Positions 7,483 through 14,017 of a DNA stretch of 46,356 nucleotides are shown piece after piece. The translations under genes were made by a program, and so were the position numbers. Origin of the DNA: a virus; the IMG/VR virus record IMGVR_UViG_3300006738_000013, positions 1 to 46,356 of that record; one strand, written 5' to 3'. The notes beneath the pieces are model-generated. The model did not search any database. It had not been told where the DNA came from and worked only from the letters and a program-made list of their open reading frames with translations. Positions within the stretch are counted from its first letter, which is position 1; each line of letters starts with the position of its first letter.

Positions 7483-7866
7483 TCATCCACGAATATGTTT
7501 AGAAGCAAACCAAATCCACATTCTAATAGCTAAGATACCTTCAGATGCAGACGAGTATAGTAATATAGACTTGCTATCTCCCTTCTTGAAACCAGCTTTA
7601 TAAACATTAGATTCATAAGATCTAACCAAAGAATACCCATCCACATTAAAATTCTTTATACCTTCCCAAATTAAGTAAACCGTAAAAGAGTCATAAATAG
7701 AAGGACTGAATTTAGAAAAGTCTCCCTCACCACCATACCTCTCATAATTCAAACCACTAGTGAAAACTGTCTCTGATGTTACCTCTACCCCTAGCATACC
7801 AGGCACCCACACCCATAAGGGGTGCCTTGAAACTCTGTATATTAAGTCTATCTCATTATCTGTCAT
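7483..7866 (-). CDS. Conserved-type phage hypothetical (WxWxPGM motif)
   Basis: A 127-aa soluble-looking protein with no enzyme motif that I can identify. Near the N-terminus it has H-P-L-W-V-W-V-P-G-M (residues 14-23), then P-S-I-Y-D-S-F-T in the middle, and S-A-S-E-G-I-L-A-I-R-M-W near the end. From memory, this arrangement (W-x-W-x-P-G-M, a central D-x-x-T, and a C-terminal E-G/A-x-L-x-A-L-type helix) recurs in short phage proteins of unknown function. It is followed by a 56-nt gap containing a TATAAT-like hexamer (7475-7470) but no convincing -35. Confidence 0.55.
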   Translation of the reverse strand: MTDNEIDLIYRVSRHPLWVWVPGMLGVEVTSETVFTSGLNYERYGGEGDFSKFSPSIYDSFTVYLIWEGIKNFNVDGYSLVRSYESNVYKAGFKKGDSKSILLYSSASEGILAIRMWIWFASKHIRG

Positions 7867-7884
7867 CGTAAAAAAGAAATACCA

Positions 7885-8376
7885 TCATAACCCACCAACC
7901 AAAAGCATGTTCTTCTCACAAAGAGAACACTCAGTACCCATGGAAGAATGAGAAGTTACCCTTTTCCTACAACCACTACACACATAAGTATAAGTACCTA
8001 AAGAAATTGAACTGCAATATAAAAATTCTTCATATGAATCAGGTATTATTTTCTCAACAATGAATCGTTGCCTCAAATTTAAAAACTCATAATAAATATC
8101 AAAATTACTATGGTCCCTGGAATAAACAAAATGCCCAGCCTCATGAAGTAAGGTGAGCTTATACTCATCGGGATAGGCTGCATGATAATCCTCATATAAA
8201 ACAATGCTGTTGGGATTAAACATAGCCTTGGCTGCCATACCATCCCCACTGGATGGCTCTACAGATACTGAGACACGCGGCAACCGTTCATGAGGAACAA
8301 ACAAATCAAACAACCTATAAAGTTCACACTCTAAAAAATCAGATGTAAACTGATTAATATTAATATTATGTAACAT
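7885..8376 (-). CDS. SprT/Spartan-like zinc metalloprotein
   Basis: A 163-aa protein with the zincin motif H-E-A-G-H at 78-82 inside a hydrophobic helix. It ends with a zinc ribbon, Y-x-C-S-G-C (Cys133, 136) and C-S-L-C (Cys150, 153). An HExxH helix followed by a C-terminal CxxC...CxxC ribbon is the architecture of SprT-like proteins, whose eukaryotic member Spartan degrades proteins crosslinked to DNA. The spacing from HEAGH to the ribbon is about 50 residues. A third zinc ligand is not obvious; His89 and Glu97 are candidates. The gene follows a possible promoter. A role in clearing DNA-bound protein or removing a host factor during replication is plausible but unproven. An ImmA/IrrE-type peptidase is the main alternative. 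Confidence 0.6.
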   Translation of the reverse strand: MLHNININQFTSDFLECELYRLFDLFVPHERLPRVSVSVEPSSGDGMAAKAMFNPNSIVLYEDYHAAYPDEYKLTLLHEAGHFVYSRDHSNFDIYYEFLNLRQRFIVEKIIPDSYEEFLYCSSISLGTYTYVCSGCRKRVTSHSSMGTECSLCEKNMLLVGGL

Positions 8377-8413
8377 ATTTATATACTCTTAATAATAAGA
8401 TACTGTATACATA

Positions 8414-8442
8414 TATGTACTACAACGAAACTCCTTTGTCAA
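8414..8442 (-). promoter_or_regulatory. Candidate promoter with overlapping palindrome
   Basis: The minus strand has a perfect TTGACA at 8442-8437, a 17-nt spacer and TACATA at 8419-8414. The -35 overlaps the stop of the helicase gene. The -10 is weak (3/6), but it lies inside the perfect 12-bp palindrome TACATATATGTA (8408-8419), which would suit a repressor site. It would serve the SprT-like gene and those after it. Confidence 0.35.
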
Positions 8443-9749
8443 GGTCCGTCATAAAATCTTCCATGAGCAAAGTCTGTACGCACCGTAACCTCCATCCCTG
8501 ATGTGCCGTCACGGTTCTTAGCTACAAACAAACGCATCTCTCGATTGTCTTTCTCCTTCTTATTCTGAGATAACCCTATGATGACATCTGCAATCATAGC
8601 CTTCCCAAAGTCCTCACTGATGTCAGCTACCGTAACCTGAGTCTTACTCAACGATGCTCTGTTAGCTTGCGTAGCAGTCCATATGGGAAGCTCCTCCTCT
8701 ACAGCCCACCCTCGTAGCGTCTCATAGATGTGAGAGTGCTCGTGACGCTTCTCTGTGTACTTCGCTGTGGACTGTAGTAGGTCTGCATAGTCTACCACTA
8801 TAAAGTCCGCAAAGAAGCCATTACGCCTTAAGTTCTCAGCACAAGACCTTAGGTTGTCCACAGTAACTGACTGAGTAGGATACTCCTTCACGTAAACCTT
8901 CCCATAAGCCGGGTTAGAAGCTATCTCTTTTAACTTCTTCTCAACTACATCAGGATGCTGCAACATCTCATTAGTCGTAAGACGAGAAAGACTCATGTCG
9001 AATCGATCTAAGTAACGGTCCTCACTCATCTCTAGAGTAAAGATTAAACCGTTAAGACCACGAAGCATGTTGAACTCAGCAATGTGCTTGAGCATCATCG
9101 ACTTGCCACGATTAGTGGGAGCGAGAATAACACCCATCTCTTTCTCGCCAAGACCACCACCGCGAAGGTAGTTGTCCAAATCCATAATGCCTGTAGGTAT
9201 TACATTCCTAACCACATTACGACGCTTTACACGCTCTTGAAAATCCTCAATGTCAGGATAAGATTGGCCAGCTTTGAATAAAATATCAGCTTTCGTGTAA
9301 GCCTCAGCGAAGACATTGGAGATGGCACCATAATCTCCCTTCTGATATGCAGCAGTCGCTGCAAGGAAAGCCTCCTGCATTAAGTTCTTCTTTACGAAAA
9401 GAACAACTCTATCTTCAATGTATCCAGCATCGGTAAGAGCATCGTCCTGTATGTTTATAAAAACTTGTCGGACATATTTTAATCGCTCTGAATCTAACCT
9501 CCCATTTCTTATATCTACTCTAAGTCTATCCTTAATAGCTCGCTCATTAATAACACTGCGAGTATCAAGGAAATGAGATCTTAAAGTGGAAAACATCCAA
9601 GCTAAATCTTTGTCAGTGAAGTAGCTGGGGGATAAATTATCCGCTGCGTAAGATAGGAAGCGAGGGTCTTTATACATCAGCGACAATATAGCGGTCTGAA
9701 AATCTAAATCGAATTCAACGTTTATGTCGCCTATAAATTCATCATGCAT
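8439..9749 (-). CDS. Replicative DNA helicase, DnaB/gp41 type
   Basis: Hexameric 5'-3' helicase at the fork. In this 436-aa protein the N-terminal helical region (1-165) corresponds to the primase-interacting collar. The RecA-like motor has Walker A A-P-T-N-R-G-K-S (210-217), L-E-M-S (239-242), Walker B FIVVDY (316-321), and A-T-Q-A-N-R-A-S with the conserved Gln of motif H3. F-V-A-K-N-R-D-G-T near the end matches the DnaB H4/arginine-finger region (K-N-R-x-G). The Walker A starts with Ala rather than Gly, which is allowed. The ATG sits inside the last codons of the upstream gene (8-nt overlap). It should work with the separate Toprim primase downstream. Confidence 0.9.
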   Translation of the reverse strand: MHDEFIGDINVEFDLDFQTAILSLMYKDPRFLSYAADNLSPSYFTDKDLAWMFSTLRSHFLDTRSVINERAIKDRLRVDIRNGRLDSERLKYVRQVFINIQDDALTDAGYIEDRVVLFVKKNLMQEAFLAATAAYQKGDYGAISNVFAEAYTKADILFKAGQSYPDIEDFQERVKRRNVVRNVIPTGIMDLDNYLRGGGLGEKEMGVILAPTNRGKSMMLKHIAEFNMLRGLNGLIFTLEMSEDRYLDRFDMSLSRLTTNEMLQHPDVVEKKLKEIASNPAYGKVYVKEYPTQSVTVDNLRSCAENLRRNGFFADFIVVDYADLLQSTAKYTEKRHEHSHIYETLRGWAVEEELPIWTATQANRASLSKTQVTVADISEDFGKAMIADVIIGLSQNKKEKDNREMRLFVAKNRDGTSGMEVTVRTDFAHGRFYDGP

Positions 9750-10515
9750 GTTTTGTATTTTCTATTTCGGCTTTCAATTTTTGATAAGAACTAAGTTCCT
9801 TAACGGATTCTCCCCACGCATCTTCAGCTATCAGCTCTAGATAAAGAGGAAGAGTCCTAAGATATCTAAACGGTATACGCTCCTTCCCTGGATAGCCCAG
9901 GAGCTTCAAAACAGATTTCCTTGATAACTTGGTAGCTTCCATCTGGAAGCTAATCATTTCTTCGTATATGAGGACGAGACTAGAACTAGGAGTCTCAATG
10001 ACTGAAGTAGATTGTTTGTCTTGGAGAGCAACGTTTACGTTATCAACACCTTCAGAAAAATAATCCAACTCATTTTCAAACGTCGCGCAGTATTGTCGAT
10101 ATCGACCAACAGAATTCCAATCCGAAAGCAACGATGTGACGTACTGAACACTCGGTGCGGTCTTCTTCCAAATGTCGTGATAGTAAAATTGAACTTCGAT
10201 AAATCGTTTGGCAGGGAAGCCGTAGTGAAGACAAATGCATGCCCCCACCACATAGGCTTTAAAGTTTTTCAAATTCCTCGAAAGGACACCATCCGTCAAG
10301 ATGGTCAAAAAGGGATTGTCTAAGTATTCGGCAAGCTTCTGTTCGTAAGTTTTGATGAAGTCTAAAAGGTGTGATCTCGTTGCGGTAACACGGTTTCCAA
10401 GTATGTTTTCTGTAAAAGTATCTGAGTTGCTAACGACATCTAAGTCTCTGTATTTAAATGATTTTCTTTTGAGGTTTCGACTTGTAAATTTCTCTTCGTT
10501 GTTTGTAAGGCCCAA
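9742..10515 (-). CDS. Unknown protein, operon leader before helicase
   Basis: About 257 aa and not recognised. There is no ATG in the first 190 codons, so the start must be non-ATG. I favour TTG 10515, which has GGAG 7 nt upstream; TTG 10560 is also in frame but has only AGGG. The protein is basic and Ser-rich at the N-terminus, helical in the middle (F-Y-Y-H-D-I-W-K-K) and has a helical C-terminus. It is the first gene after the terminator and gene-free region, and overlaps the helicase gene by 8 nt. A helicase loader or initiation factor is what such a position suggests, but no AAA+ or gp59-like motif is visible, so this is context only. Confidence 0.6.
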   Translation of the reverse strand: MGLTNNEEKFTSRNLKRKSFKYRDLDVVSNSDTFTENILGNRVTATRSHLLDFIKTYEQKLAEYLDNPFLTILTDGVLSRNLKNFKAYVVGACICLHYGFPAKRFIEVQFYYHDIWKKTAPSVQYVTSLLSDWNSVGRYRQYCATFENELDYFSEGVDNVNVALQDKQSTSVIETPSSSLVLIYEEMISFQMEATKLSRKSVLKLLGYPGKERIPFRYLRTLPLYLELIAEDAWGESVKELSSYQKLKAEIENTKHA

Positions 10516-10621
10516 GGCACTGCTCCGTGCTGGAAGTAGGTGGTACGATATTATCGACAAAAAGGAAACCCTAAATTTAAACTTTATTTATAAGTCCTTG
10601 GATTTACACCATTTTTTTCTA

Positions 10622-10640
10622 TGGCGACCTCGGGTCGCCA
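10622..10640. repeat. Strong inverted repeat (8-bp stem, 3-nt loop)
   Basis: TGGCGACC and GGTCGCCA flank the loop TCG, giving a perfect GC-rich hairpin in an otherwise AT-rich gap. On the minus strand it is followed by an A-run, and on the plus strand by no T-run, so it is not a terminator. It could be a leader RNA structure, a protein-binding site or part of an origin. Confidence 0.6.
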
Positions 10641-10773
10641 CAACTCGACAGCGAATAACGAGGCAGGAGCGAAGCGACTGGTGAGGGATTCTCGGAGAGT
10701 TAACTGAATAAAAAGAAAAAAAAGTAACAAAAAAAAGAAAAAACAATATTAAATATATAATCAGGTATAAAAC

Positions 10774-10805
10774 AAAAAGAAAAACCTTCCCCCTAAAGGG
10801 GGAAG
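10774..10805 (-). terminator. Rho-independent terminator
   Basis: On the minus strand a perfect 8-bp stem (CTTCCCCC / GGGGGAAG, 10786-10805) with a 4-nt loop is followed by GTTTTTCTTTTT (10785-10774). It lies 22 bp after the stop of the J-domain gene. This is the clearest terminator in the window and closes the structural/lysis/middle transcription unit. Confidence 0.88.
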
Positions 10806-10827
10806 TCAAAAAGAAAAATAAGTGCGC

Positions 10828-11301
10828 TTACGGAGCCCCCCCTATAATCTCCTCGTAAGCTTCCTTAACCGTCTGAAATTGTTCAGCATTCCCACCGTGG
10901 TCTGGGTGATATTCAAATACCAACGCTTTATAGACTGCTTTTATTATAAAGTCTGGTGCATCCTCACGTATATAAAGAACTGAATACGGAGAACTATCTT
11001 TGTTTAAGGTGGGTGACTTAGTATCTAGACCCTCCTGTGGTAATCCTTGGAGTGCCCGTTGTACTATTTTCTGATACATTATAGGTAAAGAGCTAGAGTC
11101 TATGTGGTTAAACAAATGTCTAGAGTAAGATATTACCTCATATAAAGCATCCGGTATTATAACCCAACAGTTATTATTCTTATTCCAAGTACGTAAGTTC
11201 TGGGTAATAGATAACGATAGAAAATTCTGTAATTCTTTGTCTTTAAAATACAGTTCTATAGCTTCTGAAATCTGATTGTATCTTAATACTAACTTACTCA
11301 A
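10828..11301 (-). CDS. J-domain (DnaJ-like) protein
   Basis: A 157-aa protein. Residues 105-155 form a J domain: Y-S-V-L-Y-I near the start of helix I, K-A-V-Y-K-A-L-V-F-E-Y in helix II, the invariant H-P-D (132-134) followed by H-G-G-N, and F-Q-T-V-K-E-A-Y-E-E-I in helix III. Such domains stimulate Hsp70/DnaK ATPase. The N-terminal 90 residues form a separate domain with T-W-N-K-N-N-N-C-W-V-I, a pattern I associate with other phage proteins that carry a C-terminal J domain. The start is TTG, overlapping the previous TGA, with GGTGA about 5 nt upstream. It probably recruits host DnaK to a phage complex. The target is unknown. Confidence 0.82.
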   Translation of the reverse strand: MSKLVLRYNQISEAIELYFKDKELQNFLSLSITQNLRTWNKNNNCWVIIPDALYEVISYSRHLFNHIDSSSLPIMYQKIVQRALQGLPQEGLDTKSPTLNKDSSPYSVLYIREDAPDFIIKAVYKALVFEYHPDHGGNAEQFQTVKEAYEEIIGGAP

Positions 11302-11693
11302 AATTTCACCATTGTTTTAATTATAGCCATACGTCCATAAGTTCTTGATATCCTTGGGATTTCTTGCTGTTCTAGAATCCACATACCCTTGATATAATTC
11401 CAAGGTAGGATAGCTAGTGCCGTATAATCCTCACCATGGGACGTTAAATTTAATCCTAAACCCTGACCAGCGTATGGACCTCCATAAACCTGAAACTCCT
11501 TTTGGTCTAAATCATTTACCGTTACTAAGCCTACAAGGTGGGTAACAAACTTTGCTTTTGCACCCCCTTTATTCTGAGAAATTACCCAACGTAAACCTTC
11601 CTTAGTAGTTATTGGTTCTACTGGATAGTTATGATGAAGAATTACCTCTGCAGTTGTCATGAGCACTACGTCTTGTGCTTTTATTGAATTCAC
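11298..11693 (-). CDS. Hypothetical protein
   Basis: A 131-aa protein of unknown function. I place the start at GTG 11693, which overlaps the upstream TAG as TAGTG and has GGAG 10 nt before it. An in-frame TTG at 11735 would overlap the neighbour by 43 nt without a ribosome binding site. The sequence looks alpha/beta with several beta strands: L-R-W-V-I-S-Q-N in the first half, then a Gly-rich segment V-Y-G-G-P-Y-A-G-Q-G-L-G-L, then T-A-L-A-I-L-P-W-N-Y. No catalytic motif is evident. It is sandwiched between the decarboxylase-like gene and the J-domain gene, with overlaps on both sides. Confidence 0.6.
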   Translation of the reverse strand: MNSIKAQDVVLMTTAEVILHHNYPVEPITTKEGLRWVISQNKGGAKAKFVTHLVGLVTVNDLDQKEFQVYGGPYAGQGLGLNLTSHGEDYTALAILPWNYIKGMWILEQQEIPRISRTYGRMAIIKTMVKF

Positions 11694-12187
11694 TAGTGAG
11701 GTTCTCCAATGATCATAGCCGCTAAGATTAAACAATAATGATAATTTGAATCCGCATTAGATATAGATTCATACCTAGTCAAAGGAATAGGAGATGTAGA
11801 TTTATTAAGAGATTCATACTCTTGAATTATCTCTTTTTTAGAAGAAGATAAATCTTTTCCATCACCGTATTGGTAATAATACATAATAGAGCCCCACTCC
11901 TTTTCATTAATTAAAGATATATCTCCTCTTATAGATTCTCCCTTAGTAACTTGAATAATAGTGCCGTATATGTAAGCATATCTAGTGTTGCTGGATTTCT
12001 TATTAAACTCCACCTCATCGACCAGGCGGAAATTAGAGTTAAGGACTCTAGCAACATCTATAAGTTTATACTTATCTATCCCTGCCTTTCTTTTAGCAAG
12101 GACTTCTGCTGCCTTTTCATTGGTCCACTTCCCTACACCAGAAGTTAACCACACATACTCTGGTTTTATAATCCCTATTCTTTCCAT
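11693..12187 (-). CDS. Pyruvoyl-dependent arginine decarboxylase-like protein, cleavage site lost
   Basis: A 164-aa protein that follows the layout of pyruvoyl-dependent arginine decarboxylases (PvlArgDC/AaxB), which make agmatine from arginine. The N-terminal part reads V-W-L-T-S-G-V-G-K (12-20), then R-K-A-G-I-D-K-Y-K-L-I-D-V (33-45), comparable to the family's G-x-G...A-L-x-x-A-G-I-x-x-x-N-L-V-x-V. A later W-G-S-I-M-Y-Y-Y-Q-Y-G segment (98-108) corresponds to the family's G-x-(I/L)-x-E-(Y/H) strand, and the C-terminal helix is similarly placed. Active enzymes self-cleave at a Ser-Ser pair right after N-L-x-x-V, but here the residues are Ala46-Arg47 and the following Pro-Pro is Asn-Ser. It is therefore unlikely to form the pyruvoyl group. 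The match is from memory and moderate. Confidence 0.45.
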   Translation of the reverse strand: MERIGIIKPEYVWLTSGVGKWTNEKAAEVLAKRKAGIDKYKLIDVARVLNSNFRLVDEVEFNKKSSNTRYAYIYGTIIQVTKGESIRGDISLINEKEWGSIMYYYQYGDGKDLSSSKKEIIQEYESLNKSTSPIPLTRYESISNADSNYHYCLILAAMIIGEPH

Positions 12188-12555
12188 CTTAATATTATCT
12201 TTTTTCTGTATATATCCATCGCTGGAGCCGTAGTTTTATTTCTTAGACCTTCAGCTACAGTAGCTTCATTAGTCTCTCCCTCATAGAGGTATAAAAGATT
12301 GATAGCTCCGTAGTCTATCTCAGCGATGCCACTGAATGAAGGGTCAGACCGAGACACAAAATTTAAGACCAATACATCATCACTATTTCGTATGATTGTG
12401 GCTGTGCCACTAGTGAAATATATGTTTTGTTTTTTAGCGTATTGTTTACCAGTTTTATACAGGAAAACTTTACCGATCATTACTGGGTAAGCGGGAGTCG
12501 TGCTATTAAGTTTAAGGAGAATCTTATCTCCTGTAGATAACTCAGTTATGTACAC
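12175..12555 (-). CDS. Hypothetical beta-rich protein
   Basis: A 126-aa protein without recognisable motifs. The first half resembles a small beta-barrel, with alternating hydrophobic strands such as D-K-I-L-L-K-L, V-M-I-G-K-V-F-L-Y and V-L-V-L-N-F-V. The second half is mixed and ends in a basic helix. It starts at GTG 12555, inside the last codons of the helicase gene, with GGGAG 9 nt upstream. It ends overlapping the decarboxylase-like gene by 13 nt. Its position suggests co-expression with the helicase; nothing more can be said. Confidence 0.55.
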   Translation of the reverse strand: MYITELSTGDKILLKLNSTTPAYPVMIGKVFLYKTGKQYAKKQNIYFTSGTATIIRNSDDVLVLNFVSRSDPSFSGIAEIDYGAINLLYLYEGETNEATVAEGLRNKTTAPAMDIYRKKIILRWKE

Positions 12556-14017
12556 TCACCAATTCTCCCACATCACTAATAATATCAATAGTAAAACACC
12601 GCTCAAGAGTATACGTTCGTAGACGTTCGAGGCTATGTTTTGCAAGGTATTTATTTGTTCGGTCGCTGAAATCGATAACAAGTAGTTTATCTTTTCGGTC
12701 ATGTAATCGCAGTCCTCTACCTACACGCTGGATAGCGCGAATATAACTATTCCCACCAGAGGCAAACACTAGGACATCTATATTAGGGATGTCCACGCCT
12801 TGATCTAATATACTACTTGATATTAGTATTTTTGTAATACCATTTTTAAAATTATTTATAGCCTCTGCTCTCTCTTCTGTCTCAAGACTTCCGTGTATAA
12901 ATTTATGGGGTACAAATTTACCCGAAGCAACAAGTAAATCACTTATTAAATGACCATGGTCTATCTTTTTAACAATGATTAAAATTTGTTTGCCAGCGTC
13001 GTTATACGTTAGAGCAGTGTCACATATAATCTTATTACGGTGGATGTTATTTACCACCCCATCTTCGTAAGCTGTCTGGTAATCAGTTCCTATAGGAATC
13101 GTAGGCTTATCTATATCTATAAATGTGATGTGCGTAGGAACACTCACCCCATCCTCAATCATCTCTTTGTTAGTAACCTTGTGACATACCTCTCCTGTGA
13201 GAGCAATCAGCTTTAAATCCTGCTTGTCACCGCGCTTAAAAGGCGTGCCGCTTAATCCAAATCGATAAGGTGCAGTGCAGTAACGAACGATGGAGAATAA
13301 ACCGTCTGAAGCTAACGTATGACACTCGTCGATAACTACAACCTTGATGCTTGTTAAAAGCTCCTCTACCTGACGCTTCCTCTCCCCCGACGTAGCCGTT
13401 ATTTTACTAGGATTGAATCGACGAGCTAGAGTATCAGCTGAAGCAATAGTGAACTTGCGTACATCCCACTTGTTAGACATCACAATGCCTACATCTTTAC
13501 TACCTAAACGTTTCTTAAAACGCTCATGAGTCTGGAAAACAAGGTCCTTACCCTTTACTAAAAAAAGAGTGGGTTCATCAATTGCCTTAATTACAGCAAT
13601 AGCTATCTCTGTCTTTCCACTGTTAGTCGCAGACCATAAAACTCCATGCTTCTTCTTAAGCATAGAATTTCCAGCTTTTATCTGATGAGACCTGAGAACT
13701 ACACCGTCTAATTCTATGTTTTTTATATTAGTAATAAGTTTAGGATTCTTAAAATCCCTGTGGTCTATTATATCAAACTTTATATTTGAATATTGTTTCT
13801 TATATAATTTAATTACCCTATCTTTTAAACCTGTAGGGAAAGCATTCTTAGCTTTACTGAAAAGCCTGGTGTATCCATCCCATGCGCGATTCTTATAAGC
13901 TGTAGAATGCCTGTATCCAGATTTCCTGAATCTTGTCGCCTTGTCTACAATGTCTGGGTCGTAAGACCCCTCAATAAAAGTATAATTAGAATGTATGTGT
14001 AATGTAGGATTAGCCAT
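12542..14017 (-). CDS. SF2 DNA helicase, UvsW-like
   Basis: A 491-aa superfamily 2 helicase. An N-terminal domain with Y-K-N-R-A-W-D-G-Y-T-R-L-F and F-P-T-G-L (about 41-64) is typical of UvsW-type and related phage helicases. The motor carries the Q-like segment L-R-S-H-Q-I-K-A (108-115), motif I A-T-N-S-G-K-T-E (130-137), motif II V-V-V-I-D-E-C-H (226-233) and motif III L-S-G-T-P (255-259). Motif V is I-S-S-S-I-L-D-Q-G-V-D-I-P (399-411) and motif VI is Q-R-V-G-R-G-L-R (430-437). UvsW unwinds branched DNA, R-loops and forks, and helps switch T4 to recombination-dependent replication. Here it lies outside the main replication block, after the lysis genes. Confidence 0.9.
   Translation of the reverse strand: MANPTLHIHSNYTFIEGSYDPDIVDKATRFRKSGYRHSTAYKNRAWDGYTRLFSKAKNAFPTGLKDRVIKLYKKQYSNIKFDIIDHRDFKNPKLITNIKNIELDGVVLRSHQIKAGNSMLKKKHGVLWSATNSGKTEIAIAVIKAIDEPTLFLVKGKDLVFQTHERFKKRLGSKDVGIVMSNKWDVRKFTIASADTLARRFNPSKITATSGERKRQVEELLTSIKVVVIDECHTLASDGLFSIVRYCTAPYRFGLSGTPFKRGDKQDLKLIALTGEVCHKVTNKEMIEDGVSVPTHITFIDIDKPTIPIGTDYQTAYEDGVVNNIHRNKIICDTALTYNDAGKQILIIVKKIDHGHLISDLLVASGKFVPHKFIHGSLETEERAEAINNFKNGITKILISSSILDQGVDIPNIDVLVFASGGNSYIRAIQRVGRGLRLHDRKDKLLVIDFSDRTNKYLAKHSLERLRTYTLERCFTIDIISDVGELVSVHN

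Follow-up and report, generated by a model that had tools for sequence, protein, structure and literature searches.

A phage protein with a predicted PvlArgDC fold and without PvlArgDC catalytic residues, encoded in a DNA-replication operon

We analyzed a window of 46,356 bases, an IMG/VR virus record in which nearly all genes lie on the minus strand, and found that a 164-aa protein encoded at 11693-12187 is a member of the PvlArgDC superfamily by descent and predicted fold. Judged by its sequence, it does not qualify as a PvlArgDC enzyme, since the defining catalytic features are missing, and loss of catalysis is well supported by the residues at the aligned catalytic positions. With its six orthologues it makes up a seven-member family from an uncultivated group of bacterial viruses, in which the gene belongs to a DNA-replication operon. 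In the best reading, with odds that we regard as about even, this PvlArgDC-fold protein, which would neither cleave itself nor decarboxylate, serves as a non-enzymatic binding or assembly subunit in a replication/recombination operon.

Homology to PvlArgDC

The gene at 11693-12187 is read from the minus strand, a detail omitted from the preliminary description, whose coordinates were correct; the opposite (plus) strand across this interval is riddled with stops. Translation recovers all three of the motifs reported earlier in PvlArgDC order, namely G17-V18-G19, A35-G-I-D-K-Y-K-L-I-D-V45 and G99-S-I-M-Y-Y-Y105, together with Ala46-Arg47 (GCT AGA, 12052-12047) at the place of the PvlArgDC Ser-Ser pair.

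The proposed homology to PvlArgDC is strongly supported by profile searches, shuffled controls and structure prediction. The Pfam profile PF01862 matches the protein at 24.9 bits (cut-off 22.7, E 2.2e-5) over its full length (protein residues 9-159 on profile positions 2-159 of 161), and NCBIfam TIGR00286 matches it with an E-value of 6.8e-7, its 29.1 bits failing the equivalog test with a curated cut-off of 106.95. Just two of the seven family members match PF01862 individually; the L003 orthologue, for example, scores 17.5 bits (E 2.5e-4), under the cut-off. When the seven phage proteins were compared with 14 canonical ones by hhalign, the probability was 95.3% over 151 aligned columns, and the canonical profile ranked six of the seven phage members over all 2,100 shuffled controls. 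The phage profile, searched against 581 whole genomes from two phyla, found a match in 1 of 284 genomes of one phylum and in 39 of 297 of the other. Each of the 11 genome loci fetched from this search carries a PvlArgDC gene, with canonical-profile scores of 107-285 bits.

The AlphaFold2 model of the protein has a pLDDT of 91.7 and a pTM of 0.85. The structure comparison suggested in the preliminary description, which had allowed for finding no structural match, yielded a predicted fold that matches PvlArgDC: a Foldseek search of PDB with this model returned the M. jannaschii enzyme (E 1e-8, probability 1.00; TM 0.59-0.65 to 1n2m/2qqd), the best matches being the uncleaved S53A proenzyme and the N47A forms, and no PDB match other than PvlArgDC at E <= 0.001. 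The positions retained from the enzyme look structural (P15, A37, A41, I43 and I/V51 in M. jannaschii numbering), whereas the catalytic ones are not retained.

Identity of the phage protein to real PvlArgDCs is about 17-20%. Searches with the 164-aa protein gave no match in PDB by phmmer, no homologue by tblastn in 50,697 phage records, none in a single-protein scan of IMG/VR, no match among PHROG families, and none among BFVD models at E <= 0.001. A HicB antitoxin match of the family profile was insignificant and is put down to chance, and Pfam matches to HSDR_N and DUF6371 were far under their cut-offs.

Loss of the catalytic residues

Homologues were reached via the neighboring helicase gene, which led to six other IMG/VR contigs that hold an orthologue at the same place, with 35-54% identity to the window protein. 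For comparison we used 32 canonical PvlArgDCs, of which 20 are cellular and 12 are on viral contigs. Residues are given below in the order window, L002, L003, L007, L005, L004 and L006, with the numbering of M. jannaschii PvlArgDC.

In Chlamydia AaxB, Ser53 becomes the pyruvoyl group and the Glu109 carboxylate aids cleavage (PMC2720952). Asn47, Ser53 and Glu109 are invariant in all 32 canonical proteins, and positions 52-53 read Ser-Ser in 31 of them and Thr-Ser in one. None of the seven phage proteins has Ser at position 53 (R, R, R, R, R, R, K), and position 52 is occupied by A, A, A, F, S, S and A. Asn47 is replaced by K, T, V, I, Y, Y and Y, Glu109 by Y, Y, H, Y, Y, Y and F, and the acid at position 35 by V, I, I, A, F, F and F. 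On the minus strand of the window, the codons of Ala46-Arg47, replacing the self-cleaving Ser52-Ser53, lie at 12047-12052, that of Lys41, replacing Asn47, at 12065-12067, and that of Tyr103, replacing Glu109, at 11879-11881. The helix alignment is ungapped, and MAFFT and hhalign give the same pairing at Glu109. Loss of the self-cleavage serines, first described for the window protein, therefore holds for the whole family and extends to N47, E109 and the acid at position 35 (7/7). The alignment of phage homologues at residues 46-47, proposed along with that description, indicates that none retains the loop Ser pair, and a pair displaced elsewhere in the loop is absent from all seven.

Other replacements introduce basic residues. 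At positions that are invariant in the enzyme, L38 is K/R in all seven phage members, as is S53, L31 is K in six of the seven, and E120 is K/R in all seven, the pairing of Glu120 being less certain. The spacing of L31, D35 and L38 corresponds to one helix face. Across the family 24 columns are invariant; W13, T22, N23, E60, Y72, Y74 and W98 are new invariant residues, accompanied by R/K47 and K/R32 (phage-protein numbering).

Age and selection

In a tree with canonical PvlArgDCs, the seven phage proteins group together with 100/100 support as a single clade, whose stem is very long; long branches meet at the base of this stem, so that the tree cannot place its junction with the enzymes. Because the seven members are one clade on a long stem, the loss of the catalytic residues is old. 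Among the family codons pS is 0.67-0.82 (near saturation) and pN 0.10-0.47, and this large excess of pS over pN indicates that the protein is under purifying selection. It diverges faster than DnaB (35-54% vs 64-79% identity). Recent decay is ruled out by the losses common to all seven members and by purifying selection.

The replication operon

The window carries a replication module (RecA, gp32-like SSB, family A DNA polymerase, primase and DnaB) as well as a long series of tail genes. The gene had been placed between a helicase and a J-domain gene, and both neighbors are confirmed, with one small gene on each side. The gene order common to the related contigs is, with all genes on the minus strand of the window, a UvsW-like helicase (12542-14017; ResIII and Helicase_C, phrog_16 DNA helicase), the small protein p126 (12175-12555; 126 aa), the PvlArgDC-like gene, the small protein p131 (11298-11693; probable GTG start, same-length homologues), the J-domain protein (10828-11301; C-terminal DnaJ domain with HPD, PF00226 at 35.1 bits), a conserved 272-aa protein (9742-10560; orthologues in 6/6 related contigs) and the DnaB-like replicative helicase (8439-9749; PF03796, phrog_19). 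The helicase and p126 genes overlap by 14 bases, p126 and the PvlArgDC-like gene by 13 bases, and p131 and the J gene by 4 bases, while the TAG stop of the PvlArgDC-like gene overlaps the probable GTG start of p131 (TAGTG). These gene-end overlaps suggest translational coupling.

Separate IMG/VR scans with the PvlArgDC-like family, p131 and p126 returned the identical six contigs; an eighth contig, L016, ends inside p131 and was left out of the co-occurrence. A J-domain search revealed none of the PvlArgDC-like, p126 and p131 genes near the J gene of further phages. The model of p131 (131 aa, pLDDT 77.8) is a predicted small beta barrel with a weak LSm/SH3-like match. The two small proteins were rejected as paralogues of each other (hhalign probability 0.6%). 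In a distant 162-kb phage (L021, IMGVR_UViG_3300019458_000024), a 148-aa gene that precedes the J-domain gene was likewise rejected as p131 or p126, scoring no better than shuffles and giving no match; the same contig holds a 1,583-aa ribonucleotide-reductase-like frame at 7484-12235, apparently with two intein-like insertions.

In the J-domain protein the N-terminal half is conserved, with an RTWNKK..CW..P motif and no Pfam match, and this half presumably resembles the HARP-type domains of annealing helicases. At 7885-8376 (minus strand) a 163-aa protein combines a HEAGHF zinc-protease-like motif with a C-terminal zinc ribbon that is weakly SprT-like. A 10-kb contig from another sample (L024, IMGVR_UViG_3300025114_001253) encodes a DnaB 100% identical to that of the window, which points to one phage, or two very close ones, in two samples.

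Proposed role and alternative explanations

We infer the functional role only from the neighboring genes and the residue swaps. As far as sequence and prediction can show, all catalytic residues were lost before the clade members diverged. The PvlArgDC-like protein most likely works as a single chain that stays uncleaved and, like its ancestor, probably assembles into a trimer. With catalysis lost while selection persists, the virus seems to have converted an enzyme to a binding or assembly protein; most likely it is a non-enzymatic subunit whose partners in the replication or recombination of the phage would be p126 and p131. We take the L31/D35/L38 helix region to line the arginine site at the PvlArgDC subunit interface. 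Based on Lys/Arg at 38, 53 and 120 and a hydrophobic residue at 35, the site that once accepted cationic arginine is now probably basic; it would no longer suit arginine and may instead bind an anion, for example nucleic acid, a nucleotide or the acidic surface of a partner. As the protein is not basic overall (22 K/R vs 21 D/E), nucleic-acid binding is not obvious. A more specific version, in which the fold of a pyruvoyl decarboxylase now serves, without enzymatic activity, as an anion- or nucleic-acid-binding replication/recombination subunit with p126 and p131, with the invariant Arg/Lys at the former pyruvoyl site, is tentative and in our assessment rather doubtful. Among the three roles proposed earlier, a scaffold or binding role fits better, and those of decoy subunit and host-enzyme inhibitor find no support.

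An unlikely alternative is that the family has gained a new, non-pyruvoyl active site built from W13, T22, N23, E60, Y72, Y74 and W98 together with R/K47 and K/R32. The 24 invariant columns hold across members that are just 35-54% identical to the window protein, and many of the invariant positions are not conserved in PvlArgDC. But these invariants are largely aromatic or small and structural-looking, no Cys or His is among them, and no other enzyme family was matched by sequence or structure (Pfam, PHROG, Foldseek vs PDB).

Another possibility, which we consider improbable, is that the protein acts on a host PvlArgDC as a decoy or regulator, entering its trimers to block or activate them and thereby altering polyamines. 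The active site of PvlArgDC lies between subunits, the fold has been retained in the phage protein, and regulation of a pyruvoyl enzyme by a dead paralogue has a precedent in the trypanosome AdoMetDC prozyme, an activator of its enzyme (PMC5201418). With about 17-20% identity and a rewritten site, however, mixed trimers are unlikely; moreover, the gene has a fixed place beside p126 and p131 in a replication operon, and the seven contigs yielded no polyamine gene. All of these contigs are fragments, and polyamine genes could lie outside them: arginase and agmatinase genes were not found in the seven, AdoMetDC (PF02675) had no match in the window or the six related contigs, and no second PvlArgDC was seen in any of them.

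That the protein is not a PvlArgDC relative, its likeness being the chance resemblance of an unrelated fold, is very improbable. Sequence scores outside the window's own copy are weak, phmmer is empty in PDB and the family profile gives just the insignificant HicB antitoxin match, but Pfam, NCBIfam, hhalign, the whole-genome back-search and the shuffle controls agree, and the confident AlphaFold2 model matches PvlArgDC alone. A functionless, decaying relic of an acquired metabolic gene is scarcely credible, since despite the missing catalytic residues and the faster change than in DnaB, the open frame is retained in seven diverged phages, the codons show a strong synonymous excess, the replacement residues are invariant and the predicted fold is confident.

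Comparison with known systems

The phage protein has the full-length predicted fold in common with PvlArgDC (PF01862, TIGR00286; 1n2m, 2qqd, 1mt1; Chlamydia AaxB). It is also similar in the order of the GVG, AGI and VxR/VSS elements, and structural Pro, Thr, Gly and Ala residues are conserved. Unlike PvlArgDC, the phage family is without Ser53, Asn47, Glu109 and the acid at 35, has Lys/Arg at 38, 53 and 120, and has its gene in a replication operon; the C-terminal half of the phage protein is shorter than in GVG-type PvlArgDC enzymes.

The best functional analogy may be the trypanosomatid AdoMetDC prozyme, a dead relative of a pyruvoyl decarboxylase that is under selection (PMC5201418, PMC2562514). 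Like it, the phage protein appears to be a catalytically dead, selected relative of a pyruvoyl decarboxylase, but the prozyme is of a different fold family and acts jointly with an active paralogue that its own cell supplies, whereas none was found in the phage contigs (fragments). In phages, AdoMetDC homologues have been converted to arginine or ornithine decarboxylases, according to the available part of PMC9992855. Both cases start from a pyruvoyl decarboxylase whose function changed; those proteins, as presented there, are of a different fold family and, unlike the phage protein studied here, stay pyruvoyl enzymes. That part describes no dead PvlArgDC among phage polyamine enzymes. AaxB of Chlamydia trachomatis is a PvlArgDC with lost activity (PMC2720952), but its inactivation reflects recent single mutations with the catalytic residues present, in contrast to the old, diverged clade in phages.

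PvlArgDC genes were also seen on other records. Sixteen IMG/VR contigs (L125-L140, match 4001 to about 4535) bear them, and all 12 of the 12 proteins read retain N47, S53 and E109, one having Thr-Ser; such genes may encode enzymes carried by phages, or the records may include host sequence. NZ_CP061967.1 (L043), a record named as a Klebsiella pneumoniae plasmid, contains at 504-962 an unannotated PvlArgDC with 52% identity to the M. jannaschii protein. This PvlArgDC is odd for the species and may be a contaminant.

Significance

Dead relatives of pyruvoyl-dependent decarboxylases are already known from the trypanosome AdoMetDC prozyme and from recent Chlamydia pseudogenes (PMC5201418, PMC2720952). 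The open-access literature searched yielded no description of dead PvlArgDCs that make up an old clade under selection, and none of the PvlArgDC fold outside metabolism. Annotation by the Pfam cut-off alone would wrongly place the gene among arginine decarboxylases and among the auxiliary metabolic genes for polyamines; the label arginine decarboxylase should not be given to the 164-aa protein. The conserved replacements provide a testable case of an enzyme pocket switching its ligand, and the trio of the PvlArgDC-like protein, p126 and p131 constitutes a small module for study in a phage replication operon.
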